From the NCBI RefSeq assembly GCF_013283835.1, contig NZ_CP054052.1, positions 2,232,001-2,296,000 on the forward strand: a stretch of 64,000 bases of DNA, read 5' to 3'. Made by a program: the position numbers and the translations under genes. Under the pieces are notes generated by a model, which saw nothing but the letters and a program-made list of their open reading frames with translations, was not told the origin of the DNA and made no database searches. Below, in pieces: positions 3,351-55,889 of this stretch (the stretch's first letter is position 1; each line of letters starts with the position of its first letter). Origin of the DNA: Poseidonibacter lekithochrous. GTDB taxonomy: Bacteria; Campylobacterota; Campylobacteria; Campylobacterales; Arcobacteraceae.

Positions 3351-6287
3351 ATTTGGTAATTCTATTTTAAATACTGTTCCTTCATTCTCGACACTTTCAC
3401 AAACAATACTACCTTCAAGCTTAGTAGTTATTAGATTATAAATAATACTTAATCCTAATCCACTTCCCCCATCTTCTCGACATGTTGTAAAGAATGGATT
3501 AAATATCTTAGTCATATTCTCAAGTGGTACACCTTTTCCATAGTCTTTGAAAGTTAAATAAATTATTTCATTCTCTTCATAAATATCTATATCTATACTA
3601 TTTTCTTCATCTTTATCATAAGCATGTTTTAGACAATTGATAATTAGATTTGTTAATATCTGAGATATAGCTCCGGGGTAAGAATTCAAAATTATATTAT
3701 CTGGACAAGATACATTAACTTTTATTTTTGTTTTTTTAGTCACATTATTTAAACTAACTAAGATTTCATTTATATATTCTAATAAATTAAATTCTCTTTG
3801 TTCATCACTAGATTGGTCAACTGCTACTTGTTTAAAACTTCGTACTAGTTGTGCTGTTTTTTGTAAGTTTACATTTATACTAGCTGATAATTCTTTTGAA
3901 GTATGAATAAAATCTTCAAACTCTTCTTCACTTAATTCATCTTTTTCATAATGTTTTGATAACTCTTCAGCCATTGTCATAAAATGTGTAATACCAGTAA
4001 GTGAAAGTCCAACAGGAGTATTAATCTCATGGGCAACACCAGCTACTAATTCACCTAATCCAGCCATTTTTTCTGATTCTATTAAGTTATCTTGGGCTTG
4101 TTTTAATTCAATCATTGATTTTTGTAAATCTTTATTAGATTGTTTTAACTGTTTAGTTCTATTATCAACTTTTACTTCTAAGGTCTCATTTAATGAACGT
4201 ATTTCATCTTCTGCTTTTATTCTAGCTTCTAGTTCTTTATCACGCTCAACTATCTTTTCTTCAAGTTGTTCTGAGTGTTCATTTAGTAGTTTTTCTTTCT
4301 CTTTAAAGTAGTTTATTTTTTTGCTAAACTCTTCAGGAGATATTCTCATGTTTTTTAAAATATCTGTATATACTTCTGATAAACTATTAGACTCGTCTTC
4401 TGAGAACACACTGCTTTTTTTAAGTACATTATGTGCACCAGCAGTTCCTAGAGTACCTGCAAGGGCACGTTCTATTGAAGTATATAGTTTTGATAACTCT
4501 AAGATAGTAATCTTATCATTATCTTCTAAAGAGAATTTTTTCTTTAATTTTTCTACAGTTCTATATGTTTTGTTTTTTGGTAAATATTGATTTAAAATAT
4601 TTGTAAATAAATTCATTTTTTCTTTTAGATCAATACTTTTTTCTAAATCTCCATTATAACTTTCAATATTCTTTTTATCTAAGATACTTATAAAATCTCT
4701 TGCTACTTTATTTTCCACATCACTTGATTTACTTATTAGTGAGACAATAATAAAGGCACTAATATTAAAAATCATCGTCCAAAAAACTGCATGAGGAATA
4801 GAGCTAAAGCCTACCATTCCAAAAAGCTCTGTAGGTTTTAGTAACGCAATATTAAATAATCCATTTTCAATAATAAAAGAAGAAATCCATTCACTCTTTT
4901 CAAATTGTGGAATAATCAATGTATAAAACCAAATCGTAAAACCAGATAATAAAGCAGCTATAGCTCCAAATCTATTGGCTTTCTCCCAAAATAAACCACC
5001 TAAGATTACAGGTACAAATTGTAAAACAGCAGTAAAAGAGATTAACCCAATATTTACAATAAGATTGCTTTTTGATACATATAAATAAAAAATATAACTT
5101 AGATAAATAAGTATTGTTACAATAAGCCATCTAATTTGTAATAATCTTTTTTTCAAAAAGTTTAATGAAGAAAAACTTTCAATTAGAGGTAAAACAAAGT
5201 AGTTACTAACCATAATAGACATAGCCATTGCTGTAATCATAATCATACTAGTAGAGGCTGAAAAACCACCAATAAAAGCTATTAAAGATAAAGCATGTTG
5301 ATTCCGCTCCATTGGAATAGTAAGTACATAAAAATCTCTTAAACTTTCAGTATGAGATAATATCTCCCCACCCATTGCAATAGGAATAGTAAAAAATGTA
5401 ATTAGTAATAAGTATAAAGGAAATACCCACATAGCAGTTTTGATATGTTTCATATCTGAGTTTTCAACTACACTTACATGGAATTGTCTAGGTAAAAACA
5501 TCACTGCAAACATAGATAATATTAAGACACTAAGCCAAGTAGAATAATCTACACTGTCACTACCTTGTCCTACTACTTTGAATAGTTCTTGTTTTGATGC
5601 TTCATTTAAAATAGTACTTATATCTGGATATACAAAATATGATATAAAAACACCAATTATTAGTAAAGCTAGTAGTTTTACAATTGATTCAATTGCTACA
5701 ATAAATACCATTCCAAAGTGTCTCTCAGAGGGGTCAAGTTTTCTTAGTCCAAATATAATAGTAAAAAACGACATTAACACTACAATTAACGTACCTACAA
5801 TACTATCTAGTTCTGAACTACTTTGAATATAAGAAGCTTCATCTTTTGCAATAAGAATATTAATAGATTGAATAATTGCTTTTAACTGAATAGAAATATA
5901 GGGAATAATACCAACTAAAGCACCAAAACTTACAATTGCACCTATTAACATTGATTTGTTATATCGTACTGATATTAAATCCGCTAAGCTCGTAACTTTG
6001 TATAGTTCTTTAATTCGTATTAATCTTTTGAGTAATAAAGGCCATAAAAAGATAGCAAGGGTTGGTCCTAAATATACAGCTAAAAAAATCAAACCACTAT
6101 TGGCAACTTTTCCAACACTACCATAATAGGTCCATGCAGTACAAAATATAGCTAAAGAAAGGGAATAAATATATGGGGCATAAGAAGATTTAAAAGTATA
6201 GTTTTTTTTCTCAATATAATATGCTATTACAAATAAGAAAAGCATATATAATAAAAATATAGCAACTATTGTATGTAGTTCAAACAT
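3339..6287 (-). CDS. Sodium:solute symporter-histidine kinase fusion (CbrA-like)
   Basis: This 982-aa protein joins a sodium:solute symporter (SSF) module to a histidine kinase. Residues 1 to about 510 hold some 12-13 hydrophobic helices, including a conserved-looking GGFSASTSMIMITAMAMSIM stretch. A linker and coiled coil (about 640-720, rich in E and K) follow. Then come HisKA with GLGELVAGVAHEINTP (phosphoacceptor His about 753) and HATPase with DYGKGVP and GGSGLGLSI. In this family (for example CbrA) the transporter domain senses or carries a nutrient and tunes the kinase. The ligand cannot be told here. No receiver domain is fused. The response-regulator gene diverges from the same upstream region, and a 65-aa membrane protein precedes this gene with a 1-nt gap. 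Confidence 0.9.
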   Translation of the reverse strand: MFELHTIVAIFLLYMLFLFVIAYYIEKKNYTFKSSYAPYIYSLSLAIFCTAWTYYGSVGKVANSGLIFLAVYLGPTLAIFLWPLLLKRLIRIKELYKVTSLADLISVRYNKSMLIGAIVSFGALVGIIPYISIQLKAIIQSINILIAKDEASYIQSSSELDSIVGTLIVVLMSFFTIIFGLRKLDPSERHFGMVFIVAIESIVKLLALLIIGVFISYFVYPDISTILNEASKQELFKVVGQGSDSVDYSTWLSVLILSMFAVMFLPRQFHVSVVENSDMKHIKTAMWVFPLYLLLITFFTIPIAMGGEILSHTESLRDFYVLTIPMERNQHALSLIAFIGGFSASTSMIMITAMAMSIMVSNYFVLPLIESFSSLNFLKKRLLQIRWLIVTILIYLSYIFYLYVSKSNLIVNIGLISFTAVLQFVPVILGGLFWEKANRFGAIAALLSGFTIWFYTLIIPQFEKSEWISSFIIENGLFNIALLKPTELFGMVGFSSIPHAVFWTMIFNISAFIIVSLISKSSDVENKVARDFISILDKKNIESYNGDLEKSIDLKEKMNLFTNILNQYLPKNKTYRTVEKLKKKFSLEDNDKITILELSKLYTSIERALAGTLGTAGAHNVLKKSSVFSEDESNSLSEVYTDILKNMRISPEEFSKKINYFKEKEKLLNEHSEQLEEKIVERDKELEARIKAEDEIRSLNETLEVKVDNRTKQLKQSNKDLQKSMIELKQAQDNLIESEKMAGLGELVAGVAHEINTPVGLSLTGITHFMTMAEELSKHYEKDELSEEEFEDFIHTSKELSASINVNLQKTAQLVRSFKQVAVDQSSDEQREFNLLEYINEILVSLNNVTKKTKIKVNVSCPDNIILNSYPGAISQILTNLIINCLKHAYDKDEENSIDIDIYEENEIIYLTFKDYGKGVPLENMTKIFNPFFTTCREDGGSGLGLSIIYNLITTKLEGSIVCESVENEGTVFKIELPNKNK

Positions 6288-54748: not shown

Positions 54749-55240
54749 ATGAACCCCAAAGTAAAAAAATATGCAAAAGAAATAGCAAAAACTCTAATAA
54801 TATTAACAGTAATACTAAATATAGTTAGTTACTTCAAATCACAAGATTTAAACAAAGACAAACTAAACATACAAACTTTTAAACTACTAGATAATAGTAC
54901 ATATACTGTTCCAAATGATAAACCAATATTAGTACACTTCTGGGCAACATGGTGTCCAACATGTAAAATAGAAGGTGGAAATATAGAAAGAGTATCAAAA
55001 GACTATGAAGTAATCACAATAGCCTCTCAATCAGGTAGTAAAGAAGAGATACAAAAATACCTAGAGGAAAATAATCTAACATTCAAAGTAGTAAATGATC
55101 TAGATGGAGAGTTTGCAAGCCAATTCAACATCTCAGCATACCCTACTACATTTATTTATGACAAAGATAAAAACATGACTTTTAGCGAAGTTGGCTATAC
55201 GTCTACATTTGGGCTTTATTGGAGAATGTTTTTTAGTTAA
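54749..55240 (+). CDS. TlpA/ScsD-like membrane-anchored thioredoxin
   Basis: A 163-aa protein with an N-terminal helix (KEIAKTLIILTVILNIVSYF) and a periplasmic thioredoxin fold: PILVHFWATWCPTCKIEGGN (active-site CPTC), VITIASQSGSKEEIQKYLEENN, and FNISAYPTTFIYDKDKNM with the cis-Pro (SAYPT). It resembles TlpA/ScsD-type thiol-disulfide proteins that reduce or protect periplasmic cysteines. SD AAGGTAAG precedes the ATG. No obvious operon partner lies nearby. The following 187 nt contain a structured element. Confidence 0.88.
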   Translation: MNPKVKKYAKEIAKTLIILTVILNIVSYFKSQDLNKDKLNIQTFKLLDNSTYTVPNDKPILVHFWATWCPTCKIEGGNIERVSKDYEVITIASQSGSKEEIQKYLEENNLTFKVVNDLDGEFASQFNISAYPTTFIYDKDKNMTFSEVGYTSTFGLYWRMFFS

Positions 55241-55266
55241 ATAAGAAACAAATCAGCAAATTAAAA

Positions 55267-55284
55267 AACTATTACAAAATAGTT
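55267..55284 (-). terminator. Terminator of the argA operon (minus strand)
   Basis: On the minus strand AACTATT / AATAGTT with a TTGT loop is followed by TTTT. It lies about 145 nt past the argA stop, beyond the larger foldable element. Confidence 0.6.
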
Positions 55285-55304
55285 GAAAGTACCGCACAAC
55301 TAAA

Positions 55305-55424
55305 ATAAATTCATATTTTTGTAAAGTTCAAGGAAGAGTTAGATATTTGAGAGGAGCGTACACGAAGTACGTGGCTAACAAATCTCTAGCTCTAACGCAG
55401 AGATTTGTAAAAAGATGGATTTAT
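55305..55424. repeat. Foldable intergenic element, 120 nt, function unknown
   Basis: The ends 55305-55324 and 55405-55424 pair over 20 nt with 16 Watson-Crick pairs plus three G-U pairs in the RNA sense. Inside, GTTAGA / TCTAAC (338-343 with 391-396 after 55000), ATTTG / CAAAT and GTAC / GTAC stems nest around a small ACGAA loop. It fills the gap between the convergent tlpA-like and argA genes. It could be a mobile interspersed repeat (MITE/REP-like), a structured small RNA, or a large bidirectional terminator. Only one copy is in this window. Confidence 0.55.
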
Positions 55425-55427
55425 GAT

Positions 55428-55889
55428 TTATAAATCGTGTACCATTGCGATTTCATCACAAATTGGAAAGTGCTTACATCTTATACAATCTGCCCAAATC
55501 TTATGCTCAGGAATTTCTTCTTTTTCTATCATTCTAAAACCTGCTGTTTCAAAAAAACTTTTTGCGTAAGTTAGAGATAAAATTTGTTTTAATTTATATT
55601 CTCTTCCCTCGTCGATACAGGCTTGTACTAATTTTAGTCCTAGTTTTAATCCTCTAAACTTTTTAGATACTACAAGACTTCGAACTTCTGCTAATCTTGC
55701 AGAGTGAATATGTAAGGCTGTAAATCCAGCCATTACACCATCTACTTCTACTACTGTATATGATCTAATAGTATTAGCCATTTCATCTTCTGTTCGTAAA
55801 AGAATGTTTCCATTGTCAACTTCTTCTTTTACTAACTCTTGCATTAACGTAATATGAGATACATCTGGTTTAAGAAATGTGATTTCCAA
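55428..55889 (-). CDS. argA: Short ArgA-type N-acetyltransferase
   Basis: A 153-aa GNAT-family acetyltransferase of the short ArgA class that makes N-acetylglutamate for arginine synthesis, without the kinase-like domain of E. coli ArgA. The acetyl-CoA motif is VRSLVVSKKFRGLKLGLKLV (V-x-x-x-x-R-G-x-G-type, with G-L-K-L-G), and the catalytic C-terminal half has FFETAGFRMIEKEEIP. The tail CIRCKHFPICDE has three Cys (CxxC-x5-C) that may hold a metal. It starts within the end of engB and is the last gene of the operon. Confidence 0.78.
   Translation of the reverse strand: MEITFLKPDVSHITLMQELVKEEVDNGNILLRTEDEMANTIRSYTVVEVDGVMAGFTALHIHSARLAEVRSLVVSKKFRGLKLGLKLVQACIDEGREYKLKQILSLTYAKSFFETAGFRMIEKEEIPEHKIWADCIRCKHFPICDEIAMVHDL

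Follow-up and report, generated by a model that had tools for sequence, protein, structure and literature searches.

What occupies the gap between a tlpA-like gene and argA, two convergent genes of Poseidonibacter lekithochrous? We addressed this in a stretch of 64,000 nucleotides (the window; contig NZ_CP054052.1, positions 2,232,001 to 2,296,000), for which an earlier note, made from the letters alone, had picked out 120 nt of this gap as one foldable unit and had weighed an RNA against an interspersed MITE/REP-like repeat. Folding bore out the unit. The + strand RNA forms a single end-to-end rod with a minimum free energy (MFE) of -40.0 kcal/mol, compared to a shuffle mean of -19.0 (z -6.88, equalled by 0 of 200 shuffles), while the - strand folds at only -23.1 kcal/mol. 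The 20-nt ends pair exactly as had been described, with 16 Watson-Crick and 3 G-U pairs, and the remaining position is an A.G mismatch. Two of the three nested stems named for the centre, ATTTG/CAAAT and GTAC/GTAC, occur in the MFE structure, but the third, GTTAGA/TCTAAC, does not: in its place that arm forms pairs between AGAGTTAGA and TCTAGCTCT. The open reading frames confirm the flanking genes as tlpA-like (+) and argA (-). The element starts about 65 nt past the tlpA-like stop, and the 3' arm of helix 1 (P1) ends 3 nt from the stop codon of argA, which lies on the - strand. The parts are collected in Table 1.

Table 1. Parts of the element and its neighbours, in window positions.
Feature	Position	Strand	Basis
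ERIC-like structured element, whole	55305..55424	+	fold z -6.88
P1 5' arm, partner 55400-55424; conserved UUUUU at 55316-55320 inside	55305..55329	+	MFE, covariation
Joint J1/2, 5' strand, AAGGA (family consensus AAGGC), ERIC-like	55330..55334	+	invariant or near-invariant alignment columns
P2 5' arm, variable and covarying	55335..55349	+	MFE; helices 2-3 of covariation analysis
Joint J2/3, 5' strand, AGAGGA; in most copies GA opposite GA	55350..55355	+	alignment columns
P3 apical hairpin GCGTAC-ACGAA-GTACGT, conserved G-U closing pair	55356..55372	+	covariation; matches ERIC core
Joint J2/3, 3' strand, GGCTAA in the window copy (family consensus GACTAA)	55373..55378	+	alignment columns
P2 3' arm	55379..55393	+	MFE; covariation analysis
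Joint J1/2, 3' strand, AACGCA, ERIC-like	55394..55399	+	near-invariant alignment columns
P1 3' arm; conserved AAAAAG at 55409-55414 inside	55400..55424	+	sequence, MFE, covariation
Thioredoxin/TlpA-like gene, co-directional with the element	54749..55240	+	ORF
AU-rich hairpin AACTATT..AATAGTT, T-run on the - strand	55267..55284	-	sequence
Anchor gene, ArgA-like N-acetyltransferase (GNAT ORF); stop codon abuts the 3' end of the element	55428..55889	-	ORF

A highly stable hairpin between convergent genes might be a bidirectional or large intrinsic terminator for tlpA and argA, and nothing more. However, the + strand carries no T-run (U-tract) after the hairpin at the window locus, so the element is not an ordinary terminator here, and a terminator scan of 54900-55700 called no intrinsic terminator. 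The simpler terminator that had been placed beside the element fared in part: an AU-rich hairpin does exist, but the scan did not call it either. As its T-run is on the - strand it would serve argA rather than tlpA, and it is possibly the argA terminator, lying beyond the element. Termination would also not need the conserved internal loops or the cross-phylum homology described below, and many copies of the element lie between tandem genes. We therefore consider a plain terminator very unlikely.

The element is not confined to this locus. The genome-wide BLASTN comparison that had been proposed found a second copy in the source genome, with 74% identity, beside guaB, and further copies in many relatives. 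A covariance model built from Arcobacteraceae copies alone (R1) matched the window copy with 116.6 bits (E 6.4e-20), spanning approximately 55297 to 55433, and found nine copies in the source genome. Of the Arcobacteraceae genomes, 83 of 104 had matches; across the order the fraction was 65 of 299, and in the Campylobacterota sample it was 102 of 397. Copy number spans 0 to at least 30 between genomes, with at least 20 copies in several Arcobacteraceae; scoring covered no more than 31 candidates in each genome, so the highest of these counts are minimum values. Species of one genus range from 0 to 9 copies, a spread that would suit a hunt for a mobilising or binding factor. Rfam gave no match to the window at the gathering score and nothing relevant at E up to 10, and in 20 related loci it returned rRNA, tRNA and one Bacillaceae-1 match away from the element. 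Neither the Arcobacteraceae element nor the E. coli ERIC consensus is covered by an Rfam family. The element would give Rfam a missing family, and a name to a feature that annotators now leave blank.

Across 59 copies that align, the loops are invariant and the stems variable, the two conserved internal loops being purine-rich, and the covariation that had been put forward as a check was found: both partners change in 32 of 39 pairs, and 87% of cells pair. With the structure read from this same alignment, the covariation score was 0.466; shuffling lowered it to 0.161, and sliding the partners gave no more than 0.19. P1 was 91% paired, with 15 of its 20 pairs changing on both sides, and P3 was 99% paired, with a basal G-U in 49 of the 59 copies. 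Among the alignment columns TCAA was invariant, and GG and CGCAGA were near-invariant; the family consensus of the P3 region is AGGAGCnTAC..GTAnGTGACT. A single copy with no covariation, which the earlier note had named beforehand as the outcome that would count against it, is thus contradicted on both copy number and pairing.

Is this pairing a property of RNA? G-U pairs numbered 230 against 41 A-C pairs in the 59 copies (121 against 13 within P1), where a strand-neutral palindrome is expected to have approximately equal numbers, although picking the structure on the folding strand inflates the ratio somewhat. As G-U is so far above A-C, one strand is selected to pair, in line with the RNA that had been suggested from the G-U pairs of the window copy. 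Strand preference alone does not separate RNA from single-stranded DNA, because DNA folding also prefers the + strand (-18.1 compared to -13.6 for the - strand). Nevertheless, the many G-U pairs favour RNA over single-stranded DNA. The two options of the earlier note, an interspersed repeat and RNA-type pairing, are on this evidence both right at once.

In sequence, the conserved loops (CAAGGC...AACGCAG and GGAGC...GTGACT) are the loops found in ERIC/IRU. What ERIC does and how it moves are both unsettled, although it was recognised around 1990. It has been described from Enterobacteriaceae and Vibrionaceae (PMC10969869; PMC2267715; PMC2759123). The Arcobacteraceae family resembles ERIC/IRU/RU-1 (127 bp) in its length class, its P1-J1/2-P2-J2/3-P3 fold and its folding strand, in the strings AGGAGC-TAC-loop-GTA-GTGACT, CAAGGCG (AAGGCG...) and CCAACGCAG, and in a profile match over the full model. 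The published E. coli ERIC consensus adopts this fold at -61.8 kcal/mol (z -9.1), with equal loop geometry at J1/2, and contains AACGCAG when read as its reverse complement. The central inverted repeat of ERIC, AGGAGCTTAC-loop-GTAAGTGACT, is present in the family consensus; the window copy has GGAGCGTAC-ACGAA-GTACGTGGCT at its centre, with one departure from GTGACT. The ERIC flanks CAAGGCG ... CCAACGCAG are present at conserved distances, as TCAAGGAAG and CTAACGCAG in the window copy. ERIC is about 127 bp long and forms one long stem-loop, and the family, at 120-139 nt, has an equal loop pattern. It also shares the multi-copy, intergenic habit of ERIC, its nine copies in the source genome lying at gene ends.

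Profile searches supported this kinship. R1 matched the ybhI-ybhJ ERIC of E. coli from end to end (31 bits, E 7.7e-5 in 5 kb). An independent set of 30 ERIC loci from Citrobacter, Klebsiella, Enterobacter and Pantoea was collected by BLAST with the E. coli consensus of PMC2759123 as the query; R1 recovered 25 of the 30 at E<0.06 and at full length (model positions 1-139; best 7.5e-9), and matched one more at E 0.84. The strand was as the consensus predicts wherever both were checked. A count of the 44-nt ERIC core in E. coli gave 24,213 places, spread over 5,373 of 5,426 genomes.

Two properties of ERIC are not shared. Its termini, TATACCC...GGGTATA, are replaced in the window copy by the inverted repeat ATAAATTC...GGATTTAT, which varies between copies, and its host range is exceeded, both by the 102 Campylobacterota genomes and by matches to core plus flank in other phyla. 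Compared to enterobacterial ERICs, the Arcobacteraceae copies belong to another phylum, have AT-rich stems, are strictly anchored at the stop of a convergent gene, and are old and vertically kept. Because core, joints, fold, length and multi-copy habit are shared while termini and host range are not, we class the element as ERIC-like, and not as ERIC itself. Its identity as a member of an ERIC-like family, the Campylobacterota branch of ERIC/IRU, is well supported by these comparisons, and an ERIC-like family outside Enterobacteriaceae and Vibrionaceae is a new result. A distant branch with such strong covariation shows where selection acts, namely on both joints, on the P3 hairpin and on a single strand.

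This identity also settles how the earlier label, MITE/REP-like, should be read. The MITE half fits, since ERIC counts among the MITEs (PMC10969869). REP-like does not fit, because the element is approximately 120-140 nt long and has internal-loop motifs, whereas a REP is a hairpin of 20-40 nt. A REP/BIME mobilised by a RAYT transposase would likewise be interspersed and palindromic, but with three helices, two conserved joints, no short REP unit and homology to ERIC in the element, we give this explanation almost no credence. Correia/NEMIS, RUP, SPRITE and other bacterial MITEs are small, palindromic, transcribed intergenic repeats (PMC2229807, PMC10969869); as far as their description in the literature allows comparison, Correia/NEMIS, RUP and SPRITE resemble the element in kind only. 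Two other candidates were rejected. The paired R boxes of an integron attC site were not seen, and a CsrA-type GGA sponge or Shine-Dalgarno mimic does not agree with J2/3, where GGA is not strictly conserved, only GA.

ERIC is used worldwide for typing. The 3' halves of the ERIC2 and ERIC1R primers do not match the aligned Arcobacteraceae copies, though ERIC-like sites exist. ERIC-PCR has been widely applied to type arcobacters (e.g. PMC12299246, PMC2755481).

Where do the copies lie? For 91 Arcobacteraceae copies, with genes called by longest ORF, the gene on the 3' side was convergent in 89 of 90 cases, and its stop codon fell -14 to +24 nt from the end of P1 in 86-87 of 90. Random placement in the same gaps gave 65% convergent and 24% within -14..+24 nt. 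The 5' side was mixed, with distances from overlapping to >1000 nt, and 58 of the 90 copies lay between tandem genes, without a co-directional gene upstream. The anchor genes, named from their sequences, are mostly housekeeping genes (in the source genome argA, guaB, hypD, fabI, lepA, grpE, an nrdB-like gene and others). One source-genome copy (locus L078, 1501-1639) lies inside the grpE-dnaK pair, antisense to it. In other Campylobacterota the placement holds partly: 19 of 23 copies have a convergent gene, and 13 lie close. Enterobacterial ERICs are not strictly anchored at the 3' end, with a convergent gene in 11 of 29 and few copies near the stop, although the ybhI ERIC of E. coli does follow it, at +7 nt. 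Strict placement at the stop codon of a convergent gene in Arcobacteraceae is new, and like the kinship with ERIC it was absent from the earlier note. It also provides a concrete, testable hypothesis.

The copies have also stayed in place. In 44 of the 59 aligned copies the nearest relative lies at the same gene, for 29 of these in another genus; copies at nrdB span nine genera and those at guaB seven. Copies that share a gene across genera had a mean identity of 0.743, higher than copies at different genes (0.67) or copies from a single genome (0.677). Recent jumping is therefore not seen, because paralogues within a genome are no closer than copies at different genes in different genera. The nrdB copies alone, from nine genera, still covary (0.359 compared to 0.149 when shuffled). 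As same-gene copies are the closest across genera and the nrdB copies still covary, we conclude that the copies are old and have kept their places next to particular genes, in up to nine genera. This persistence is a new result as well. The window copy is younger or often lost: eight genomes of the same genus have argA with no recognisable element, and several of them have a terminator-like hairpin directly after the stop. In these eight congeners the sequence past the stop is too diverged for an empty site to be aligned and read for the TA target-site duplication that accompanies ERIC insertion.

The chief rival to a retained function is that the element is purely selfish, a MITE that some recombinase or single-strand machinery inserts beside terminators in a fixed orientation, its fold serving mobility only. 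ERIC is itself classed as a MITE, the element has terminal inverted repeats, copy number varies greatly between genomes, the fixed orientation and position suggest targeted insertion, and the window copy is missing at argA in the eight congeners. However, the identities above are not those of copies that are on the move, and the structure still covaries at orthologous sites such as nrdB. Because covariation continues in place, selfishness alone is disfavoured, and we consider it unlikely, while the strict orientation does favour targeted insertion at some time.

We therefore prefer, with a probability of roughly two in three, that the element is an anciently mobile structured RNA that is now kept as a 3'-boundary element. 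From its copies, fold, one-strand pairing, homology to ERIC, placement and persistence, all read from sequence, we infer how it might act and move. It would have originated as a non-autonomous mobile element that entered gene 3' ends next to terminators in a fixed orientation. Its RNA would be made by transcription heading towards the 3' end of the anchor gene (here from tlpA), and the folded rod would mark or protect the 3' boundary. The rod could halt or process antisense transcription that runs on into the neighbour, and could set the 3' end of the upstream transcript; the joints would be a putative binding site for a conserved RNA-handling factor. An effect at the RNA level is plausible because ERICs in Yersinia transcripts alter mRNA stability in an orientation-dependent manner (De Gregorio 2005, as reviewed in PMC2229807).

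Several observations speak against a 3'-boundary element. Enterobacterial ERICs lack the strict anchoring, the termini are unlike those of ERIC, and a fixed mechanism of insertion could account for the anchoring with no function involved. The promoter signal is also weak (a -10 excess near -15, with 24 per 5-nt bin compared to about 12), and in the 58 copies between tandem genes no co-directional gene lies upstream. Copies of this last kind, together with the RNA-level fold, might instead suggest a family of free-standing small RNA genes, each with its own promoter and sharing a terminator with the convergent gene; in some copies TATAAT-like boxes occur and P1 is followed by a T-run. However, the -10 excess is slight, the promoter match at the window locus is 9/12, and several copies, such as those anchored at nrdB, have no T-run on the folding strand, which makes small RNA genes improbable.

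How far does the family extend? A core-pattern scan of species genomes found at least 118 stretches, in Enterobacterales, Campylobacterota, Bacteroidota, Bacillales, Clostridia, Verrucomicrobiota, several Gammaproteobacteria and a few others. As these stretches were picked by their core, the test rests on the sequence outside it. Among the matches listed, the 5' flank CAAGG/CGAGG/AAGGCG was correctly placed in 72% (7% for shuffled flanks), the 3' flank AACG[CA] in 58% (5%), and both together in 47% (0.25%); these percentages include Enterobacterales and Campylobacterota loci, and so do not measure the other phyla alone. Top R1 scores were 70 bits in Bacteroidota, 66 in Enterobacterales, 62 in Clostridia and 58 in Bacillales. 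For 72 non-Campylobacterota copies aligned to R1 the covariation score was 0.661, compared to 0.156 when shuffled, though fitting this alignment to the model biases it in the model's favour; the basal G-U of P3 was retained in 71 of the 72, in columns that lie inside the selected core. The matches in other phyla come partly from metagenome-assembled genomes (MAGs), and also from isolates (Sporosarcina, Shouchella, Lysinibacillus). A wider reading is that ERIC is one branch of a bacterium-wide structured-RNA family, in at least five phyla, at gene 3' ends and in rRNA spacers, whose two loops would bind a conserved factor and which in Campylobacterota became fixed antisense at housekeeping stop codons. 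We hold this tentatively, at somewhat less than an even chance. Relatives in several phyla would make a local repeat a general question of bacterial RNA.

The ERIC-like copies in rRNA spacers (Enterobacterales, Bacillales, Campylobacterota), which R1 or the core pattern picked up, have the core and joints in common with the Arcobacteraceae element, but differ in their site, 23S-5S or tRNA-Ala/tRNA-Ile, in being mostly rRNA-sense, and in scoring equally among the operons of one genome. Several Campylobacterota (L131-L136, L143, L144) have copies between the tRNA-Ala and tRNA-Ile genes of the spacer, sense in three genomes (G342, G314, G220) and opposite in a fourth (G079). Copies in the 23S-5S spacer were seen in Bacillales (e.g. 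L182) and in Enterobacterales (by a 5S-like flank), at loci that include L153 and L201. Such copies also account for a rejected candidate, a protein-bearing autonomous partner: the equal-scoring multiple copies proved to lie in rRNA operons (L131-L136) or to come from a contig that is duplicated in inverted form (L137), and no transposase gene was noticed. Locus L137 (G218:C18:11000-18500) is a mirror-image duplication of the contig centred near locus position 3700, probably an assembly artefact, and its two equal ERIC-like matches are one copy read twice.

The Lysinibacillus locus (L201) has two ERIC-like copies in tandem, and a Legionellales MAG (L163, 500-960) has three in tandem between two tRNA genes. 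In the Verrucomicrobia MAG GWC2_42_7 (L221, L226, L229, L253), short contigs bear many copies on either strand, suggestive of a recent spread there. In a second subtype, from Sulfurovum/Sulfurimonas-like genomes (L145-L148, L166, L190, L200, L218), P3 and J2/3 are kept and J1/2 differs, reading TGTAGATTTG ... CAAAGATGC; these copies overlap stop codons as well, namely those of guaA, rplS, and porC-like and petC-like genes.
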